Shown: positions 49,681 to 61,214, counted from the stretch's first letter. The stretch: 64,000 nucleotides of DNA from Thermoproteota archaeon (GCA_003352285.1 QQVN01000003.1:454490-518489); one strand, 5' to 3'. The notes: a model not told the origin generated them from the sequence alone. A program made the numbers and translations.

Positions 49681-51015
49681 TTATGAAACCCTTAGAATTC
49701 CAGTTTGAATCAAATGTTGAACTCCATTTACAAAATCTGAATCTGTTATGATGCCATCTGCCCACCAACCGGCATTTGTCTTAATCCAGGAAGGAATTTG
49801 GTCATTTTGTGATATTCCTTGAGTAGTTTTAGGTATGGAAATGATGTCATGTTTTATCAAATACTGAATTCCTGAAACAAAATCATCATTGCTTATTTTA
49901 TTTTCTGCCCACCACTTTGCATTATTTCTAATCCAGTCTGGAATAGAATAATCTTCAGTTAGAATCTCTTTTTGTATTTCTTTGGTGATAACAAATGGAA
50001 TTACATCAGAGCTGTATCCCATGTATCTTCCTTGAATTGTATATGCACCTGGTTTGATATTATCATCAATTCTAATTTGCAAAGAAAACATTCTTCCATC
50101 AGTAATATATGCCTTGTATTCTTTTTTGGCGCCATCAGGACTTGTAATATCTAGTAAAACATTTTGTCCTCTTGCAAACTGTTCTTTTGTTACCATTCCA
50201 TTAAATGTAATAATATCAGAATCTTTGTTTGATACATCAAAGGAATCAAATGGATTTACTTTCAGAATTCCCTCTGATTCATGTAGGAATCCATATGGAC
50301 CGTATAGATCATGCATCATGCGAATATCTGCAGGCCTAATCTGTAGTAGGGTGGTTGCTTCATCAAAGTTTGGAATCATTATTGATGGTACTAACGCACC
50401 ACTGAGAATCCAGTTTGACATATCTGCAGTTGTGTCAGTGTAGTGACCTAATCCAAATGCATGACCTAATTCATGTCGAATAATATTTCCAATTACAGTT
50501 GGACTGCGTAGTTGATCAAGATAGCATCTGTTGTAGTATATGTAAAAGTCATCTGTACTGGTACATATTCCGACTCTATTTACAAAAATAACAACCATTG
50601 ACTGTCTTGATTCATCCTCATACAATGCATATCCTGCAGTGCCATCTGGTAGGTCTCCTTCTGTTGGATATGGTTGGAACAGTACGTAAATGTCACAGAT
50701 TGGATTTTGTTTGTTAGAATCTGATTCTCCTTCTTGGTATGATAGTTCTCTGTAGGTCATGTCCCAGTATTTGGCAGTCTTTTTGTTTGATTCTTGGAGT
50801 TTTGTCTCCCATTCAGTTACAACATTTCTTGCCTGAGTTAAGAGGGATTTTTTATCAGTTTCAGATACAAAATCAGGCTCGATTGCACAAATTGTTGGAT
50901 TTTGCCAAATTCGCTGCCCCTTTAGAGCATAATTTGGTTCTGCATAGGCTTGAATTGGGATTAAAAGTATTATTCCAAATGATACCATAGTTAATAAAAT
51001 TCCAAATCTTGGCAT
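49681..51015 (-). CDS. secreted matrixin-like metalloprotease with WW-type repeats
   Basis: A 444-aa exported protein. Signal peptide MPRFGILLTMVSFGIILLIP ending at AYA. The zinc site is H181-ELGHAFGLG-H191, a perfect HExxHxxGxxH metzincin motif, followed by a Met-turn candidate (PSIMIPNF). A beta domain lies at about 250-350. Two C-terminal repeats follow: IPDWIRNNAKWWAENKISND and IPSWIKTNAGWWADGIITDS, each ending in a DFV-x-G-[IV]-Q-[YH]-LI helix. I recall this WW-containing repeat as common in thaumarchaeal secreted proteins; it may bind the S-layer. Confidence 0.82.
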   Translation of the reverse strand: MPRFGILLTMVSFGIILLIPIQAYAEPNYALKGQRIWQNPTICAIEPDFVSETDKKSLLTQARNVVTEWETKLQESNKKTAKYWDMTYRELSYQEGESDSNKQNPICDIYVLFQPYPTEGDLPDGTAGYALYEDESRQSMVVIFVNRVGICTSTDDFYIYYNRCYLDQLRSPTVIGNIIRHELGHAFGLGHYTDTTADMSNWILSGALVPSIMIPNFDEATTLLQIRPADIRMMHDLYGPYGFLHESEGILKVNPFDSFDVSNKDSDIITFNGMVTKEQFARGQNVLLDITSPDGAKKEYKAYITDGRMFSLQIRIDDNIKPGAYTIQGRYMGYSSDVIPFVITKEIQKEILTEDYSIPDWIRNNAKWWAENKISNDDFVSGIQYLIKHDIISIPKTTQGISQNDQIPSWIKTNAGWWADGIITDSDFVNGVQHLIQTGILRVS

Positions 51016-51818: not shown

Positions 51819-54617
51819 TTAATCAACAATTATTATTCCAATTTGCCAAGGATGAAGAGTACAAAAATATGGGTATCTTCCCTTTTCATTAAAATGATAT
51901 CCGAATGAAGTTCCAGGAGTAATTTCGCCACTATCAAACTTGTAATTTTTTCCCGTTGTTGGATTTCCACTGGTAATTGTATGAGGCGAAAAATCATTAT
52001 TTTTCCAAACAACAATTTGATTTGGTTTAATATGCAACTCTGACGGAATGTAACATTTGTGTTCATCCTCACAACCAGGAACATTCGTACCTAGGGGTAT
52101 ACTAACATCAAATTTTTGAGAAAATATGTTTGAATTTAATATGTTTTTTGATTCAGTGATTGTATCGCCAGATATTTCATATTCGGATTCTATTGGTGTG
52201 CATAACGCAACTGGATTTTCAAGTGATTCCCAAACATAAACCGTTAATGTGAACAAGCCGGATTTTTCTGGCTTCCATTCCGTAGTCAAACTTTTATGCT
52301 CTTTAGGCGATATTACACCCGATTTGAAAAATTGTTCAATTATATTTTTGTTAGAGTCAGTTATTTGTATAACGTGAACAAATTTTTGATCAGTAGCCTG
52401 AGTACTGAAAAATGTTGAAGAAATAATGATCTTTTGGTTTATTCCAGATGAAGCAAGTTGGTTTCCATAAGAATCAAAAAGTCTTGGAAAATCACAAACT
52501 ATTTTTTGTATAGATGGAATACGCTCACCAATAAAAGCAGTCGCAGTCATTGAAAGATCATCGTCTATAGAATATGGATCAGGTAATGTCTTATCTACAT
52601 ATTCAGCAGTTACCGTGTCACCCATACTTACCTTAAGGGTCGTTCCGATAGAATTTTCTTTTTCAGAAAATTTTATTTTAGCAAGAAAAATCCCCGTTGA
52701 ATTATCAGTTTCATTAACCGGAACAATTATTCCGATAGGATCAGTATCGCTCCAAACTTTAATTTTAAAAGAATCAATTTGTTCTGGATTAATATTCATA
52801 TCTGGATCAACTACTCTTACAATTCCATAATGTTCAGGCAAGTAGGCTGACTCTAACCACTGGATTTCTCCTATATTCCATCGAATTAATGCTGATGCAG
52901 TGATGGTTTTAGATTGCGTTGAAAAAACTATTGTTATTGCATCATCATTTTTACAAGCCAATAACCCATCTGCTGGACCATGCCCAGAGGTAATTTCTCT
53001 GCCAGAAATTTTATGCTTTTTTGAAATTTTAAATCCCGTAAGAGTTACTTCGCCAAAGAAAATTCCCGAATTTTTTTTGTTCTCTTGAAGCGAATAGTTG
53101 AGTTTCCCCAACTTTGTTTGAACAGATATTTTATAATTATCGCTATTTCCTATGGAATTGATTTTTTCAGGATTACGGTTTAGTTCAGGTGCAATTAAGG
53201 CTATACGAACTTTATCTCCCCAAGAGTATACTTTTTGATCTAGTATAAGCGCCATAACAAATTTTGTAGTGTGAAATTGAACTAGGTATTCTTGATCATT
53301 CAGAGTTGCTTTAATGATGTAATTTGTATTCTCTTTCCAATAATTTCCCTCAATTCTAACTATTTCTTGATATACTCCATTAGATTTTTCAGAAAGTGGA
53401 ATTACATTTGAATAAATCGTATTGTTATTTTCATCAATAATTTTTAGATGGATAGAATTCTGAGATAATTCTCTAGTATGAATTGAAATTAGAATTTTGT
53501 CTCCATACTCAAATGATTTTTTATTGGTCCGAACAAACAAGGGAAAATTAGTTCCAATAATTTCAATTTCTTCAGAACCTTCTAAGAATTTTATCGATAA
53601 AATTCTTTTATCTGGAAAAATCTTCTCATCAAAATCTTCTTCTTGACCATCAATCAATACGAAGAAATCATCATCCTCTGTGCCGTTTTTAGAGTCCAGT
53701 AGTTTTCTTGGAATGTCTATCGATAGTTGTCCATCACCTACAGTATGAACAGAAATTATCAATGACTTTGAATCAGAATCTGGAACAATATTACGAATTT
53801 TTCCTTTTGTAATGGAGTATGGTAAATCAAAAGAATAATTATCAAATTTAGTAGTAAATACACCTTCTTCTGTCACATCTGATGAAGGTTGTGACAATGC
53901 CTGAAATTCAGGTTCAGATATCTGAATATTTTCAGATATGTTATCCAAAGGATTGCTTACAGCTTCAATACATTCGAAATTCTTAGGTACAGGATCGAAA
54001 TTTAGTTCAATATCTTGAATTTCTGAGGAATGTTCTATTGTACAATGTTGGATTTGTTCATTGTTTGATATTAGAATAACATCAACACCATAATCCTCTA
54101 TATTGCCAACACTTTCAATTGATTTTGAAACCTCATTTAAAATTGATAAACCGTATTCTAGTGCAATCTTCCATTCAAGTTCATAAGGTTTGAATTTGCG
54201 TATTAAGTGGTTCGCTATCTCAATTCCGTCTCCATAAGATTTGAATTTTGGGGCATCATCAATTATCGTCTGCATTGAATTAGATAGATGTACTTGATGA
54301 AATTGATACTTTGTATTTTCTTTTATCATTAAAAGTCCTGATGAAACTTTAATTTCTCCACCAAAAGTTGGAGAGTTTTGCATTATTTGAGAAATTTTTA
54401 TTCTAGCATTATCAGAATTAATTGTTTGATCGGATTTTAACTCATTTATTATTGTGAAAATTCTATCCACATCACCAGACAGAGCTAAAAGAAATTCTTT
54501 GTTTTTAGGTAGATAGTATTTTTTTGAAATTTCACTTGTTGAGGAAGAATTAGTTTGCTTTCGATCGGCAATAATTAATTGGGCATCTTGACATTTCAGG
54601 TAAAGAATTAATGTCAT
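51819..54617 (-). CDS. proteasome-like Ntn domain fused to beta domains and a cupredoxin
   Basis: A 932-aa protein. Residues 1-about 195 look like a proteasome beta/HslV subunit: MTLILYLKCQDAQLIIADRK puts Thr at position 1 after Met removal, Asp at 17 (IIADRKQT), lysines at 31/32, and Gly at 47 (LLALSGD); EDYGVDVILISNNEQIQ matches the late GVDV strand. Residues about 260-335 repeat the beta domain of the PEF protein at 41065 (LSIDIPRKLLDSKNG; EEIEIIGTN). Several Ig-like domains follow. Residues about 838-932 are a cupredoxin with ligands H879, C919, H922 and Gln at the axial position (YFCTLHPWQIG). No signal peptide or membrane helix is visible, which is odd for such domains. Separately, each domain call is good; the combined function is unknown. 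Confidence 0.75.
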   Translation of the reverse strand: MTLILYLKCQDAQLIIADRKQTNSSSTSEISKKYYLPKNKEFLLALSGDVDRIFTIINELKSDQTINSDNARIKISQIMQNSPTFGGEIKVSSGLLMIKENTKYQFHQVHLSNSMQTIIDDAPKFKSYGDGIEIANHLIRKFKPYELEWKIALEYGLSILNEVSKSIESVGNIEDYGVDVILISNNEQIQHCTIEHSSEIQDIELNFDPVPKNFECIEAVSNPLDNISENIQISEPEFQALSQPSSDVTEEGVFTTKFDNYSFDLPYSITKGKIRNIVPDSDSKSLIISVHTVGDGQLSIDIPRKLLDSKNGTEDDDFFVLIDGQEEDFDEKIFPDKRILSIKFLEGSEEIEIIGTNFPLFVRTNKKSFEYGDKILISIHTRELSQNSIHLKIIDENNNTIYSNVIPLSEKSNGVYQEIVRIEGNYWKENTNYIIKATLNDQEYLVQFHTTKFVMALILDQKVYSWGDKVRIALIAPELNRNPEKINSIGNSDNYKISVQTKLGKLNYSLQENKKNSGIFFGEVTLTGFKISKKHKISGREITSGHGPADGLLACKNDDAITIVFSTQSKTITASALIRWNIGEIQWLESAYLPEHYGIVRVVDPDMNINPEQIDSFKIKVWSDTDPIGIIVPVNETDNSTGIFLAKIKFSEKENSIGTTLKVSMGDTVTAEYVDKTLPDPYSIDDDLSMTATAFIGERIPSIQKIVCDFPRLFDSYGNQLASSGINQKIIISSTFFSTQATDQKFVHVIQITDSNKNIIEQFFKSGVISPKEHKSLTTEWKPEKSGLFTLTVYVWESLENPVALCTPIESEYEISGDTITESKNILNSNIFSQKFDVSIPLGTNVPGCEDEHKCYIPSELHIKPNQIVVWKNNDFSPHTITSGNPTTGKNYKFDSGEITPGTSFGYHFNEKGRYPYFCTLHPWQIGIIIVD

Positions 54618-54697
54618 AATAGAATATCCACTGAATGGGATAAAACTATTTCAAAATATCATTTTGACGTATTATCATATAGTATGAAGTTTAGATT

Positions 54698-55306
54698 TTA
54701 ACAACCATATTTTATTGCCCACGACTCACCTGCAAACTCACTGCTATCACAAAATCCAGCATACATTACTGCCAATCCTGATTCCATTATCTCTTCATTG
54801 AGATTATATCCATTACAATGAATTTCCGCAATCATTCTGCCGTAACTTCCTTCTGTCTGCCCATCATCCTCATCAACTATAACAGTAGAACCAACAGGGC
54901 AGATAGTAGCGATATAGCTTTTTGCCTCCTCATATCCTGATTCCCCACGCTCAGGAGTATTTACTAGGGCAAATCGGATAGACTTGCCATCAACAGTTAT
55001 GGTATCCCCATCAACTATTCTATCTACAGTTCCTGCAAAGCACTTTGCTGTTCCTTTGCACTCATAATCAAGCACCGTTATTTTTTCAGGTGGAGGATAT
55101 GTGCATGATGCTCCACTCCATGTGCCACCTAGTGAGAGGCATTCTATCTTTTGATTCTGCTCGTCAGGTGGGGCAACACCTGAGAATCCCGTACGGGAGT
55201 CAGTAAAGGTATCTTGTGTGGTTTGGGCAAAGTTTGAGGCAAGAAATCCAAGTAAAATTGCAATACCTGCAACTACAATGATAATGCCAAGAATTCTTGT
55301 ATTCAT
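54698..55306 (-). CDS. membrane-anchored staphylococcal-nuclease-like protein
   Basis: A 202-aa protein. An N-terminal helix (ILGIIIVVAGIAILLGFLAS) anchors it, and residues about 90-202 are an SNase domain facing outside: VDRIVDGDTITVDGKSIRF (metal aspartates; R111 as Arg35), ALVNTPERGE (E119 as Glu43), and GSYGRMIAEIH (R157 as Arg87). The calcium ligand Asp40 of the S. aureus enzyme is Asn116 here. Several cysteines may form disulfides. It probably degrades extracellular DNA or RNA. It lies 31 nt downstream of an HNH-nuclease gene. Confidence 0.82.
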   Translation of the reverse strand: MNTRILGIIIVVAGIAILLGFLASNFAQTTQDTFTDSRTGFSGVAPPDEQNQKIECLSLGGTWSGASCTYPPPEKITVLDYECKGTAKCFAGTVDRIVDGDTITVDGKSIRFALVNTPERGESGYEEAKSYIATICPVGSTVIVDEDDGQTEGSYGRMIAEIHCNGYNLNEEIMESGLAVMYAGFCDSSEFAGESWAIKYGC

Positions 55307-55337
55307 GATTTTTTAAGAGTTTAGAAAGTTAAATTTT

Positions 55338-55904
55338 CTATTCGCTTTCTCCCATTTGGGCTTTACGACTTTTTATTGCGTGACAATTTGGGCATAATGC
55401 TTGACAATTACTAATATCATTATTTGTTCTATCACCATCAATGTGATCATAATCAACTACATTGAGAACACGTCTACAACTATTACACCTATGATCTTGC
55501 TTTTTTAAGACTTGATGTTTCACTGAAGACGAAAAACTTTTTCGTACTCCAATGGAGCCGCCGCCACCCCCTTTTACGGCCACAGCAATTATGATGATTA
55601 AGATAATTGCTCCAATGATATAGTAACCAGAATTTTCATCAAGAGTAATTGATGATACAGAGTTTGGATCATCGACACAGATAATTCTACCGCCACTAAC
55701 TGCTTTCTGAATTTTCCCTATAGGACAATCCACAGTACTAAATGTAGAAGATGAACCACCAGATTGAATTTCTTGTGCCTTTTTTGCATTTAGCTCATCT
55801 AGTTGACGATCTAATTCGCTAAGTGATTGACCAAAAGCTGGAGTCAATAATGGGATTAATATCAAAACAAAAAGAATTGATTTTATCATTTTGATTGAAT
55901 CCAT
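55338..55904 (-). CDS. membrane-spanning HNH endonuclease
   Basis: A 188-aa protein: signal-like helix (MIKSILFVLILIPLLTPAFG), a short extracytoplasmic segment with two cysteines (VDCPIGKIQKAVSGGRIICV), a transmembrane helix (GYYIIGAIILIIIIAVAV), a Gly-rich linker, and an HNH domain at about 128-180 (RCNSCRRVLNVVDYDHIDGD; ALCPNCHAIKS). C140/C143 and C171/C174 are the zinc ligands; D153-H154 and H175 the active site. If residue 1-25 is cleaved, the HNH part lies in the cytoplasm. Its start overlaps the upstream Cys-rich gene by 19 nt. Confidence 0.75.
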   Translation of the reverse strand: MDSIKMIKSILFVLILIPLLTPAFGQSLSELDRQLDELNAKKAQEIQSGGSSSTFSTVDCPIGKIQKAVSGGRIICVDDPNSVSSITLDENSGYYIIGAIILIIIIAVAVKGGGGGSIGVRKSFSSSVKHQVLKKQDHRCNSCRRVLNVVDYDHIDGDRTNNDISNCQALCPNCHAIKSRKAQMGESE

Positions 55905-56326
55905 TGCAAGATAACATTCAGTTGTTCACGAATTATTGAGTTTAATGAATCAATTTTTTTGTTCAATTGTTTAATTTGAGATTTTAAATCAAAGTTCTCT
56001 TGTTTGAGTTTAGAGTTTTCTTTTGTTAATTGATCTATCTTTGTAGTATACTTTGAAATGGATTCCTGAGTATATTGTTGTCCTGAACTTGAGCTAGAAT
56101 AACCTGATGAACTTGAGGAAGAACTGGAACTAGATTTTGGCTGGCCATTATAACAAAAGTTGTTGTTAGGACACTCAGAACAATATCCTTTGTCCCCGCA
56201 TGTGTAAGAACCAGAATCAGAAGGGCAACTGTGCCATCTGTGGCATCCATCTTGGTGGCCATAAACGGGTAAAATTGTGCCTAAAATCAGTAAGGAGATG
56301 CTCAAAAAGGAAAGTAATACTTTCAT
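55886..56326 (-). CDS. exported Cys-rich protein with coiled-coil tail
   Basis: A 146-aa protein. Signal peptide MKVLLSFLSISLLILGTILP ending at VYG; then a compact Cys/His module, HQDGCHRWHSCPSDSGSYTC, GDKGYCSEC, that I associate with secreted nucleases of the SNase/HNH type in prokaryotes; a long Ser-rich linker; and a C-terminal coiled coil (KIDQLTKENSKLKQENFDLK). It heads a three-gene unit with HNH and SNase proteins. The module may bind metal or nucleic acid. Confidence 0.7.
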   Translation of the reverse strand: MKVLLSFLSISLLILGTILPVYGHQDGCHRWHSCPSDSGSYTCGDKGYCSECPNNNFCYNGQPKSSSSSSSSSSGYSSSSSGQQYTQESISKYTTKIDQLTKENSKLKQENFDLKSQIKQLNKKIDSLNSIIREQLNVILQWIQSK

Positions 56327-58255: not shown

Positions 58256-60052
58256 CTAGGGTACTACCTGTAACACAACCTCAGATGTAGGACCTATAGC
58301 AAAATCTTCTGAAGGATTACCATTAGTAACCTTTCCATCAGCTAGTACATACATGATATACATCTGGGTATTTGTCACAGTAGGTGCAGTTGCAGAAAAT
58401 TGAATTGTTTTACCCTCCAAACCTGCAGGTCCACTACCATCGATAGCACTATTCAAATCACCAATTATCTGAGATGAAGTATCTGAAAACACCTGGTAAC
58501 TAGTAGTAAAGTCACCAAATCCATTGATACTAGCAGGATTTACAGTCCATCCCCTAGGTACGTTAATGATTAATCGAGAGCTAGCATCAATCTCATTTGT
58601 TGTTCCCTTTTCAAAGTCAGCTAGAACAACATTAAACGTCTGAGAAGATCCTGATAGAATTCCAGTCTTATTCACATAGATGTTACTATTTACTGTAGAA
58701 TCTGGAACAGTAGACAAGTAAACATTAACCATCGAAGTATCTGAATTTCTATTATCAAAAGATGTACTGTATCCTGCTTTTCCAAATTCGCCCACAGTAG
58801 TAAACACATCAACATGTACAATGACAGATTCTAGCAATGCAGAGCTTGCAACACCTCCAGGATGCACCTTTGCTAGGAAAGGAAACACAGAGTATGGTGC
58901 AATTCTTTGTGGAGTACTCAAGTTTTGCCACATTAACTGGTTATGTGATGGACACGACCAATTACTAGTAGTAGGAGCTACAGTTATTGGATTACATTTA
59001 TCAGAACCAGTCGATGCATCAAGCATCACATCTTGGCTGTTTGCCCTAGGACTAAACACCGAAATTGCAACCTTACTGACATACATCTCCTGTCCAGTTG
59101 GGTTTACAATGTTTGCACCCCATAGTGCATGTTCTGGTGCATCACCAAACGGAGATGGTATCACCATGAATATTTCAGGACGAGACAACAAGTCCTGCGT
59201 TAGAACAATTAGCTCTGATGAATCAGGTGCTTGTAGTTTTACAGAATCAGAATCATCATTGCTTTTAACAAAATATCCTGTTATTGCTTCAGTTCCTGTT
59301 GCATTACCAGAAAATGTAACAAAGGTTCCAGCAGTACCATTTACCTTAAACTTCCAGGTAAAGATAGTAGATTCAGCAGGATCTAATGTAACTGGAATAG
59401 GATTTGGCGGCAAAGGTGTTGCAACTCCAGTAGATGGTGTGATGATTAGCTGCTGTGGTGCAACATCATAAATTCTGCTTTTGCCAATGTTGGTCACATG
59501 CATTGCAAGAGTGGTATTCTGCCCAACTTTGACATCAGGTGGAATGGTGAATACTTCGGCTCGTAGTTTGTTTGCACCTCCAGCAAATAGCTCCTCAGTG
59601 TGTATTGTTCCCAGAGTGGATACAACCTTGACATCATAGGTATCAGGAATCATGTGTAACTGCTGATTTGATACGATATCTGCCCCATATCCAGGCGGAA
59701 TTACAGTATCAATTCCAGTCAGGTTGTATGCCTTTACTGGATAGTCATTTGCAGCATCAGTCTTGTTGATAATCCATAATCTAGATATCTCAACTGGATA
59801 GGTTCCCTCATTTTTTACCAAAACGCTTAGTTTGTTATCATTTAATGGATCAGTCGATACCGAAATTGAATACTGTTCTCTAATCTTTTTGATTTCATTT
59901 TTTGTAATTGATTGTTGTGAATTTATCAATTCATTTTGTGTATCTAATGCCAAAAAAACTACGGATAATGAGCTAGTCATCAATACAAGAAAGAACAATG
60001 CGCCAACTACAGTTGAGATTCCACGTCTAGGAGTCTTGTACCATTGTATCAC
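58256..60052 (-). CDS. large pilin-like protein with class III signal
   Basis: A 598-aa protein with leader KTPRRG and hydrophobic ISTVVGALFFLVLMTSSLSV, as in archaeal pilins, but with a very large beta-rich extracellular part (VSVSTDPLNDNKLSVLVKNE; VKVGQNTTLAMHVTNIGKSR; YVNKTGILSGSSQTFNVVLA). It is the last of four coupled genes, overlapping the one upstream by 4 nt. The size suggests a tip adhesin or minor pilin rather than a filament subunit. Confidence 0.78.
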   Translation of the reverse strand: MIQWYKTPRRGISTVVGALFFLVLMTSSLSVVFLALDTQNELINSQQSITKNEIKKIREQYSISVSTDPLNDNKLSVLVKNEGTYPVEISRLWIINKTDAANDYPVKAYNLTGIDTVIPPGYGADIVSNQQLHMIPDTYDVKVVSTLGTIHTEELFAGGANKLRAEVFTIPPDVKVGQNTTLAMHVTNIGKSRIYDVAPQQLIITPSTGVATPLPPNPIPVTLDPAESTIFTWKFKVNGTAGTFVTFSGNATGTEAITGYFVKSNDDSDSVKLQAPDSSELIVLTQDLLSRPEIFMVIPSPFGDAPEHALWGANIVNPTGQEMYVSKVAISVFSPRANSQDVMLDASTGSDKCNPITVAPTTSNWSCPSHNQLMWQNLSTPQRIAPYSVFPFLAKVHPGGVASSALLESVIVHVDVFTTVGEFGKAGYSTSFDNRNSDTSMVNVYLSTVPDSTVNSNIYVNKTGILSGSSQTFNVVLADFEKGTTNEIDASSRLIINVPRGWTVNPASINGFGDFTTSYQVFSDTSSQIIGDLNSAIDGSGPAGLEGKTIQFSATAPTVTNTQMYIMYVLADGKVTNGNPSEDFAIGPTSEVVLQVVP

Positions 60053-60723
60053 CGCGTGTCACCACTCAGTATGATAAATTCAGCTGGCTGGTTTGCACCA
60101 AAGTTGATATGAATTTGCAATGGACGCCATACCAAAATGTCTGGTGCAATATCACCACTTAGTTTAATCACCAATCTAACTTCTTGGTCTGGTAATAATT
60201 CATTTGATGATTGTTGTAGTAACTGTACAGTATCTGATGCCGGAATAATACTAAACTGTCCACCCAATGGATACTTGCCAGTAAAATCATCAACAGATGT
60301 CTCTAGTAATTTTCCTGATGTGTTAGGATCCCAGCTGTGTAACACATTATTTATCTGAACATTATGGATAAAGACAGGCTTTGTGTATGTGTTTTTTATT
60401 TTCAAAACAATAAAGTGAGTACCTTCATTGCTAACACTTAGTGGGATGTTATTCTCATATAATGCACATGAATCAGTACACAATTCTTGATTGAAATTAT
60501 TATCCAATTGAAGGATATTAGAAAGATTTACAGAATCCCTTGTATCATATCCTGTAAGCTTTATTGAATTTGGTGGAATATCAGAAACTGTCTTTCCAAC
60601 ATTAGTCAGATCAGAATCACTCATTATTATAGAAAGAAACAGTGCGCCAACTAGCGTCATTGCTAAAATTAACAAAGTAGTGATTACTTCTGATACTCCT
60701 CTGTGTGATGATGTCTTCATCAA
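60049..60723 (-). CDS. pilin-like protein with class III signal
   Basis: A 224-aa protein with leader KTSSHRG and hydrophobic VSEVITTLLILAMTLVGALF. The mature part is beta-rich (VLKIKNTYTKPVFIHNVQIN; EVRLVIKLSGDIAPDILVWR), with a CTDSC pair that may form a disulfide. It overlaps both neighbours by 4 nt, so the three pilin-like proteins should be made in fixed proportion. Confidence 0.78.
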   Translation of the reverse strand: MMKTSSHRGVSEVITTLLILAMTLVGALFLSIIMSDSDLTNVGKTVSDIPPNSIKLTGYDTRDSVNLSNILQLDNNFNQELCTDSCALYENNIPLSVSNEGTHFIVLKIKNTYTKPVFIHNVQINNVLHSWDPNTSGKLLETSVDDFTGKYPLGGQFSIIPASDTVQLLQQSSNELLPDQEVRLVIKLSGDIAPDILVWRPLQIHINFGANQPAEFIILSGDTR

Positions 60724-61214
60724 GTGTTAAACGGCCTCGCTATTGTATCAAAGAAATTTCCACGTCCAGTAATTATTGAGATTTTATACTCGCTGTTTGA
60801 ATAGTAAGAATCCTGCCATTCCTCTGGTGTGGCATTTGGCAAATCTGCCTTGAATGAAATATCTCCTGAATCCTTAATCATCATTAAAGAGGCCAGATTA
60901 TTTTGAGAAAATATTACCTCCTGAGTATCCATTTTTACTACGGTAATCTTGTCTACTGAGGTCTGAATCGTGCCTATATTGCGTATAGATATCGTAACAG
61001 TATCGCTTTTTGGCTCAAACCTAATGTGCTCAAATATCAAATCCTCACGTAGGGAACCTGAAGTCTCTGGACCAGTTGTGATTAATCTTTGATTCAGCTC
61101 ATTTGTTTCCCCAAGGCCCTGACTGAGAATTACTCCACCTATTGGAACTACCACTGCCAACATAAACAAGCTCCCCACAACCTGACTTATCCCCCTACTT
61201 TTCCTCATTCTCAC
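60720..61214 (-). CDS. small pilin-like protein with class III signal
   Basis: A 164-aa protein with leader MRMRKSRG and hydrophobic ISQVVGSLFMLAVVVPIGGV, then a single beta domain (IRFEPKSDTVTISIRNIGTI). The size is that of a typical minor pilin or archaellin. It overlaps the upstream zinc-rich gene by 20 nt and the next pilin-like gene by 4 nt. No cysteines in the mature part. Confidence 0.78.
   Translation of the reverse strand: MRMRKSRGISQVVGSLFMLAVVVPIGGVILSQGLGETNELNQRLITTGPETSGSLREDLIFEHIRFEPKSDTVTISIRNIGTIQTSVDKITVVKMDTQEVIFSQNNLASLMMIKDSGDISFKADLPNATPEEWQDSYYSNSEYKISIITGRGNFFDTIARPFNT

Follow-up and report, generated by a model that had tools for sequence, protein, structure and literature searches.

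A 932-codon gene on the minus strand of the window (the whole 64,000-nucleotide stretch of DNA analysed here, from an ammonia-oxidising archaeon) encodes a proteasome-like Ntn-hydrolase domain joined to a tail of domains typical of the cell envelope. The anatomy and fold of this protein are well supported, and we tentatively propose that it has a role in defence. Each of the domain types is already known. As claimed in an earlier note on this DNA, it is their combination that appears to be new: no description of this architecture was found in the literature searched.

A proteasome-like domain with an envelope-type tail

The gene and its parts are listed below, where G104 is a genome from another genus within the window's family and G112 is a third genome, carrying a SIR2 fusion.

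51819-54617, minus strand: 932-aa gene (Ntn hydrolase, surface and Ig-like domains, S-layer tail, cupredoxin), from its reading frame and translation and the G104 homologue
54640-54647, minus strand: TATA-like box, lying 23-30 nt before the ATG, read by eye
54003-54617, minus strand: proteasome-like Ntn-hydrolase domain, residues 1-205, from AF2, Foldseek, VIA-align and the homologue alignment
54612-54614, minus strand: Thr2 codon, predicted catalytic Thr1 once Met is removed, invariant in six homologues and in structural register
54564-54566, minus strand: Asp18 codon (mature Asp17), invariant, within the motif DRK
54519-54521, minus strand: Lys33 codon (equivalent to proteasome Lys33; mature number 32), invariant in six homologues
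54474-54476, minus strand: Gly48 codon (mature Gly47, oxyanion hole), invariant in six homologues
53853-54002, minus strand: variable linker, residues 206-255, with 25% identity to G104 against 32-53% for the domains
53550-53852, minus strand: thaumarchaeal cell-surface domain, residues 256-356, resembling secreted PEFG-type proteins
53301-53549, minus strand: Ig-like domain, residues 357-439, found together with the S-layer tail only in the window, G104 and the G112 SIR2 fusion
52176-53300, minus strand: S-layer tail, residues 440-814, homologous to residues 1352-1732 of the Nitrosopumilus maritimus S-layer protein (NmSLP)
51822-52100, minus strand: cupredoxin, residues 840-932, from PF00127, PDB 5fc9 and the ligand positions

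The gene coordinates given in the earlier note are correct, but the strand had been omitted: stops are abundant on the plus strand across this interval, and the N-terminal letters quoted there match the minus-strand translation exactly. The annotated ATG is the likely start because in-frame stops lie 11 codons 5' of it and 8 codons 5' of the ATG in the G104 homologue, and because a TATA-like box (by eye) precedes both ATGs at identical spacing. The position of this box suggests a leaderless start. With stops so close, neither Ntn-fused protein has space for a signal peptide. Indeed, no signal peptide was found in the 932-residue protein, in agreement with the initial reading, and no segment of the chain is sufficiently hydrophobic to form a transmembrane span.

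The predicted fold of the N-terminal domain and its putative set of active-site residues are both well supported. An AF2 model based on an alignment of five sequences (pLDDT 74.7, pTM 0.76) is of the Ntn type, as had been expected for residues 1-200 from their resemblance to HslV and proteasome beta subunits. Proteasome subunits occupy all of the top 50 rows when this model is compared with the PDB by Foldseek (E-value 1e-8). In VIA-align, the highest score is that of Anbu (5nyw_L; Z 18.8 over 193 residues, 3.0 A), followed by 20S beta subunits with Z about 17, so that the lead of Anbu lies within about 1-2 Z. Residue 2 of the model falls on residue 1 of the Anbu and 20S beta chains. Confidence is low beyond residue 196, in the region of the Anbu C-terminal helix H5. 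A full-length AF2 model confirmed the Ntn part, with a tail too poor to judge the pairing of cysteines C555 and C708.

The six aligned homologues, with identities to the window domain as low as 21%, all begin with Met-Thr (from ATG, GTG or TTG start codons) and share eleven invariant columns, including T2, D18, R19, K20, K33, G48, G129, G177 and D179. The catalytic positions of proteasomes are conventionally numbered Thr1, Asp17, Lys33 and Gly47 (PMC8665760), and the lysine of the window's family lies one residue earlier than proteasome Lys33 in mature numbering. The earlier note had read Thr1, Asp17 and Gly47 into this sequence, and the invariance of T2, D18 and G48 bears this out, as does that of G177 and D179 for the late GVDV strand. 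Its catalytic lysine, placed at 31/32, is precursor K33 (mature 32) and not K32. The proposed Thr21 does not hold, because T22 (mature 21) varies among the homologues. No variation is seen at T2, D18 or K33, and none of the findings that the note had named as refuting its reading was observed.

Used by itself as a query, the N-terminal domain gave nothing beyond chance against Pfam and PDB sequences, and weak matches to 7mcd and DUF4397 were discarded. The window domain has no match to PF00227 (Proteasome), for which the best homologue shown scores 15.0 bits against a gathering cut-off of 22.4, and no PADLOC model recognises the Ntn protein. When a profile was built from the six homologues, its best PDB matches were proteasome alpha subunits, at an E-value of only 0.05. 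This profile also yields short N-terminal matches at about 1e-6 in reading frames of proteasome-subunit size from genomes of the phylum, which were taken to be ordinary proteasome subunits. The source genome also encodes four ordinary proteasome-family subunits, and profile-profile comparison with its own proteasome subunits is collinear and weak (E 0.0096, probability 4%). Because the Pfam cut-off is missed and the profile-profile match is weak, we class the domain as a branch of the proteasome-like family that is divergent, new at the level of sequence and outside PF00227.

The remainder of the protein resembles exported proteins. Among the secreted PEFG-type proteins that this genome encodes, some are up to 63% identical to residues 256-356. 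Residues 440-814 match NmSLP (8c8k) with a phmmer E-value of 2.9e-91 and share 39-42% identity with the S-layer proteins of many genomes. Thus, the Ig-like domains first reported are present, but at residues 440-814 they are the tail of a Nitrosopumilus-type S-layer protein, which had been missed. The N. maritimus protein consists of ten Ig-like domains, the last of which is possibly an anchor (PMC11153153). The cupredoxin, likewise anticipated with H879, C919 and H922, scores 23.9 bits against a PF00127 cut-off of 21.2 and matches PDB 5fc9 with an E-value of 1e-10. Its predicted copper ligands are these three residues and an axial Gln925. Gln rather than Met occupies the axial position in both Ntn-fused proteins, whereas Met is found in 12 of the 13 cupredoxins compared from the source genome; axial Gln occurs in stellacyanins. 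The cupredoxin also retains a GC...CY cysteine pair. C555 and C708 are common to both Ntn-fused proteins and absent from the S-layer proteins compared. In the source genome, near relatives of each tail domain bear a signal peptide or membrane anchor.

Two nuclease genes, listed here as neighbours and not as partners, precede this gene:

54698-55306, minus strand: staphylococcal-nuclease domain (PF00565) with an N-terminal anchor
55338-55904, minus strand: HNH nuclease with a signal peptide or transmembrane segment (weak PF01844; ZorE-like HNH, 2e-6)

Together with a gene for a small secreted coiled-coil-like protein, they form a run of three upstream genes (54698-56326, minus strand). Their close spacing to the 932-codon gene suggests that all four are one transcription unit of envelope-facing nucleases. 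Elsewhere in the window, also on the minus strand, are a gene for a secreted metallopeptidase-like protein, which has a HELGHAFGLGH motif and, towards its C-terminus, two repeats of the IPxWIKxNAxWWA type (49681-51015), and three consecutive genes for pilin-like proteins (58256-61214; 598, 224 and 164 aa), two with weak Pilin_N matches, followed by one for a TackOD1 output-domain protein.

Relatives of the fusion and of its parts

The full-length homologue in G104 has 933 residues and is 45% identical over window residues 1-932, which shows that the fusion is not the joining error that the earlier note had allowed for. Every domain is retained and the linker alone drifts (identities of 52% for the Ntn domain, 25% linker, 46% surface, 32% Ig, 48% S-layer and 53% cupredoxin). 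A phage-type integrase, scoring below the Pfam cut-off, lies near the G104 gene.

When the tail was used as query against 250 genomes of the window's family, most matches were ordinary S-layer proteins. One match in G112, however, is an 835-residue protein (L151:8356-10863) that begins with a SIR2_2 domain (PF13289, 2.7e-24). The best match of this domain is Thoeris ThsA (4e-32), followed by Dsr2/DSR2 (3e-20). The Ig/S-layer module of the G112 protein is shared with the window protein at 39% identity (E 1.7e-105) and with the G104 protein at 42% (E 3.9e-120), and the G112 protein has no signal peptide, surface domain or cupredoxin. A profile of the Ig domain, built from these three proteins, recovers them at 1e-43 or better and nothing else in the 250 genomes better than 4.8e-10. 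A putative effector domain fused to the Ig/S-layer module is present in only three of these genomes. In a tree of the tail, the three fusions fall on one side of a branch with support of 90/83, although the branches are long and this grouping is not decisive, and the window and G104 Ntn fusions group together with support of 98/93. The SIR2 fusion is a single gene from one fragmented genome (330 contigs). Near it are genes for the PADLOC candidate defence proteins PDC-S01 (an ATPase) and PDC-S02/Mrr-like. We know of no precedent for the exchange of SIR2 and proteasome-like domains in front of one S-layer module.

Genome searches also identified four stand-alone Ntn proteins of roughly 207-240 aa, in Candidatus Nitrosotalea devanaterra (G008), an uncultured Cenarchaeum (G023), the Thaumarchaeota MAG APA_bin_56 (G013) and a Nitrososphaerales MAG (G262). 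The G013 gene (L007:1501-2127) carries an in-frame TGA, which reflects either decay or a sequencing error. A single-sequence scan of the genome contigs with the N-terminal domain found nothing; of the alignments used for patterns, one of six rows was too diverse and one of four rows worked. Low-scoring hits in G098, G109, G114, G119, G127 and G032 were dropped as homologues; translations from dropped hits (L010, L015) have the look of 2H-phosphoesterases and align only to the middle. The Ntn family is present in five of the 250 genomes of the window's family and in 5 of its 22 genera, a patchy distribution like that of mobile accessory genes. A phage-type integrase lies near the G008 Ntn gene. 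Sequence searches among viruses, phages and plasmids brought up no homologue of the Ntn domain.

In all four stand-alone cases, the Ntn gene is followed by a member of one homologous gene family encoding about 750 aa (35% identity at 6e-157 and 28% at 3e-88 among pairs). These two-gene cassettes are located at L018:7164-10102, L019:9253-12207, L085:7938-10918 and L082 (G013). The partner copy of G013 ends at the contig end, and in G008 the two reading frames overlap. The partner has HEAT-like repeats and, over its N-terminal half, a match to OloA (5e-14), which belongs to the anti-phage system Olokun. Its last roughly 200 residues have relatives in haloarchaeal plasmids, one adjoining a BREX-5 pglZ gene; a PD-(D/E)xK nuclease in the C-terminal part appeared possible by eye and was supported by no model. 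No OloA-like partner gene was found near the window gene or the G104 fused gene. Fuchs et al. (2021) described 22 further families of proteasome homologues and reported no suggestive genome context for them (PMC8665760). Against that background, and as far as the literature searched goes, the linkage of Ntn and partner genes has not been described before for a proteasome homologue.

Proteins with the same S-layer tail are also encoded by four IMG/VR contigs (L087-L090). Complete S-layer genes with signal peptides are present on two of these contigs (G669 and G671; 1557 and 1606 codons; L157:2130-6800 and L158:4176-8993), amid genes of head and packaging type that were recognised by eye, with weak PHROG head matches for one. 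None of the four viral contigs gave a match to the PF03237 terminase, but portal-, terminase- and head-like genes were seen there by eye. The literature searched yielded no paper on thaumarchaeal S-layer proteins encoded by viruses. One depiction of integrated elements from Thaumarchaeota includes SLP and PetE (plastocyanin) genes (PMC6563490).

Proposed role and alternative explanations

We favour, at somewhat short of an even chance, a single cytosolic modular protein of defence type, with an exchangeable effector in front and a mimic of the surface coat behind. Removal of Met1 by methionine aminopeptidase would expose Thr1 and leave a dormant Ntn hydrolase as the effector, and the protein would stay in the cytosol. 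The tail, whose surface, Ig, last S-layer and cupredoxin domains copy host envelope proteins, might serve as sensor or scaffold. Its target would be a foreign protein of S-layer or cupredoxin type that a virus or mobile element produces inside the cell, and the tail would either bind this protein or co-assemble with it through the Ig/S-layer interfaces. Clustering of the Ntn domains would then switch on proteolysis of host or viral proteins, with an antiviral outcome. Our confidence falls along this series, from exposure of Thr1 through cytosolic location, recognition or assembly by the tail and activation by clustering to the antiviral effect.

The reading of the tail as a sensor arose from the G112 fusion and not from the window protein alone. 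NAD, the substrate of SIR2, is cytosolic. The presence of SIR2 in front of this Ig/S-layer module therefore argues for a cytosolic protein, and makes it more likely that the surface part works in recognition or assembly within the cell than that it is a secreted redox device. The interpretation in the earlier note is partly supported: the fold, the active-site set, the conserved fusion and the cupredoxin ligands hold, and protease activity and a coupling of the enzyme to copper redox chemistry would go beyond them. The viral contigs with whole S-layer proteins, apparently from head-tailed viruses, suggest a possible trigger, and envelope-type proteins brought in by mobile elements would fit a sensor built from envelope domains. 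The conserved G104 fusion, the SIR2 sister with the candidate defence genes near it, the patchy spread, the integrases and the OloA-like partner all lend support to defence, which we nevertheless hold only tentatively. The main counter-evidence to a cytosolic defence protein is the intact predicted copper site with its GC...CY pair, features that would fit an oxidising, copper-bearing exterior better than the cytosol. In addition, the SIR2 fusion is one gene that lacks the cupredoxin and surface domain, its grouping with the Ntn fusions has the limited support given above, neither fused gene adjoins an OloA-like partner, and the immediate neighbours in the window include secreted nucleases and not clear defence genes. 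Lone proteasome-type subunits are also usually inactive outside an assembly. We class the protein as a putative modular effector/sensor and not as a proven defence system. It is possible, though doubtful, that such proteins constitute a new class of archaeal immune receptor, in which an intracellular copy of the S-layer tail and of the cupredoxin acts as bait or sensor for envelope-like proteins introduced by viruses and mobile elements, and is coupled to exchangeable effectors, either a SIR2 NADase or a proteasome-type protease.

The leading rival is pure secretion, ranked second, with a surface enzyme that is exported without a classical signal. Such an enzyme, a protease or connectase-like ligase acting on S-layer or envelope proteins, would be set in the lattice by its S-layer tail while the cupredoxin senses or shuttles electrons. 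The retained copper ligands and cysteine pair, the exported relatives of the tail domains in the same genome and the secreted or anchored nucleases upstream are all consistent with this location, and connectase, a proteasome homologue, is indeed a ligase (PMC8665760). However, the upstream stops preclude a signal peptide in either fused protein, there is no transmembrane stretch, removal of Met before Thr is cytosolic, and the SIR2 sister would find no NAD outside, which leaves this explanation unlikely. The same absence of an export signal, together with the proteasome-type catalytic set and a tail copied from the proteins that these cells export most abundantly, is what a cytosolic quality-control protease would show if its tail docked homotypically on unexported S-layer or cupredoxin chains for the Ntn domain to degrade. 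Yet most relatives have S-layer proteins and the Ntn fusion is confined to 2 of the 250 genomes, an unusual distribution for a housekeeping function. The SIR2 sister would also be left unexplained, and we consider this role improbable.

Slightly less probable again is that the Ntn domain is dead or serves as a self-processing assembly domain, in the manner of alpha subunits, in which case the protein would act structurally or as a decoy. Alpha subunits do share the fold while being inactive, and they are the first match of the six-homologue profile, but they lack Thr1, whereas T2, D18, K33 and G48 stay invariant down to the most distant homologue. Only the odd domain mix by itself would point to an assembly or frameshift join with a chance resemblance to HslV. 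This explanation is refuted by the second genome, where the same fusion is conserved throughout, and is at odds with the strength of the fold match, so that its probability is negligible.

Comparison with known systems

Although homologues of the proteasome are common beyond the 20S particle, hardly any of them has a known role. The conserved fusion, the stand-alone two-gene cassette and the exchange with a SIR2 immune domain give a concrete context for one of them. If the immune reading is true, a proteasome-type protease would join the prokaryotic immune effectors, among which we know of no proteasome-like member before, and an archaeon would have turned an imitation of its surface coat into a sensor inside the cell. 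These findings also draw attention to head-tailed archaeal viruses carrying whole host-type S-layer genes.

Proteasome-like Ntn hydrolases such as Anbu, 20S beta and HslV share with the window protein the fold over residues 1-204, the Thr1 register and Asp17/Lys33/Gly47; the window protein differs from them in its 730-aa envelope-type tail and the missing PF00227 match. In the genomes searched here, its family is known from Thaumarchaeota only, and its stand-alone forms have a conserved downstream partner, unlike the 22 families of Fuchs et al. That partner matches OloA over about 300 residues. Olokun, however, needs both OloA and OloB, whereas the Ntn protein corresponds to neither through any PADLOC model and the window locus has no partner.

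In the tail, residues 440-814 correspond to the last domains of NmSLP (8c8k; PMC11153153), but the window protein has no signal peptide and carries these tail domains only, instead of the array of ten. The tail of the window protein also diverges much faster and has two cysteines, C555 and C708, that it shares with the G104 protein. The cupredoxin has the same His, Cys and His ligands as the plastocyanin/amicyanin type, with the axial Met replaced by Gln in both fused proteins. Among immune proteins, DSR2 is described as depleting NAD upon recognising a phage tail tube protein (PMC10981675), and the G112 sister is headed by a SIR2 domain of the ThsA kind. ThsA combines SIR2 with SLOG, in whose place G112 has Ig and S-layer domains, and the C-terminal part of DSR2 is likewise replaced in G112 by an S-layer-like putative sensor. 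The window protein differs from these SIR2 proteins in turn, having an Ntn domain where G112 has SIR2.
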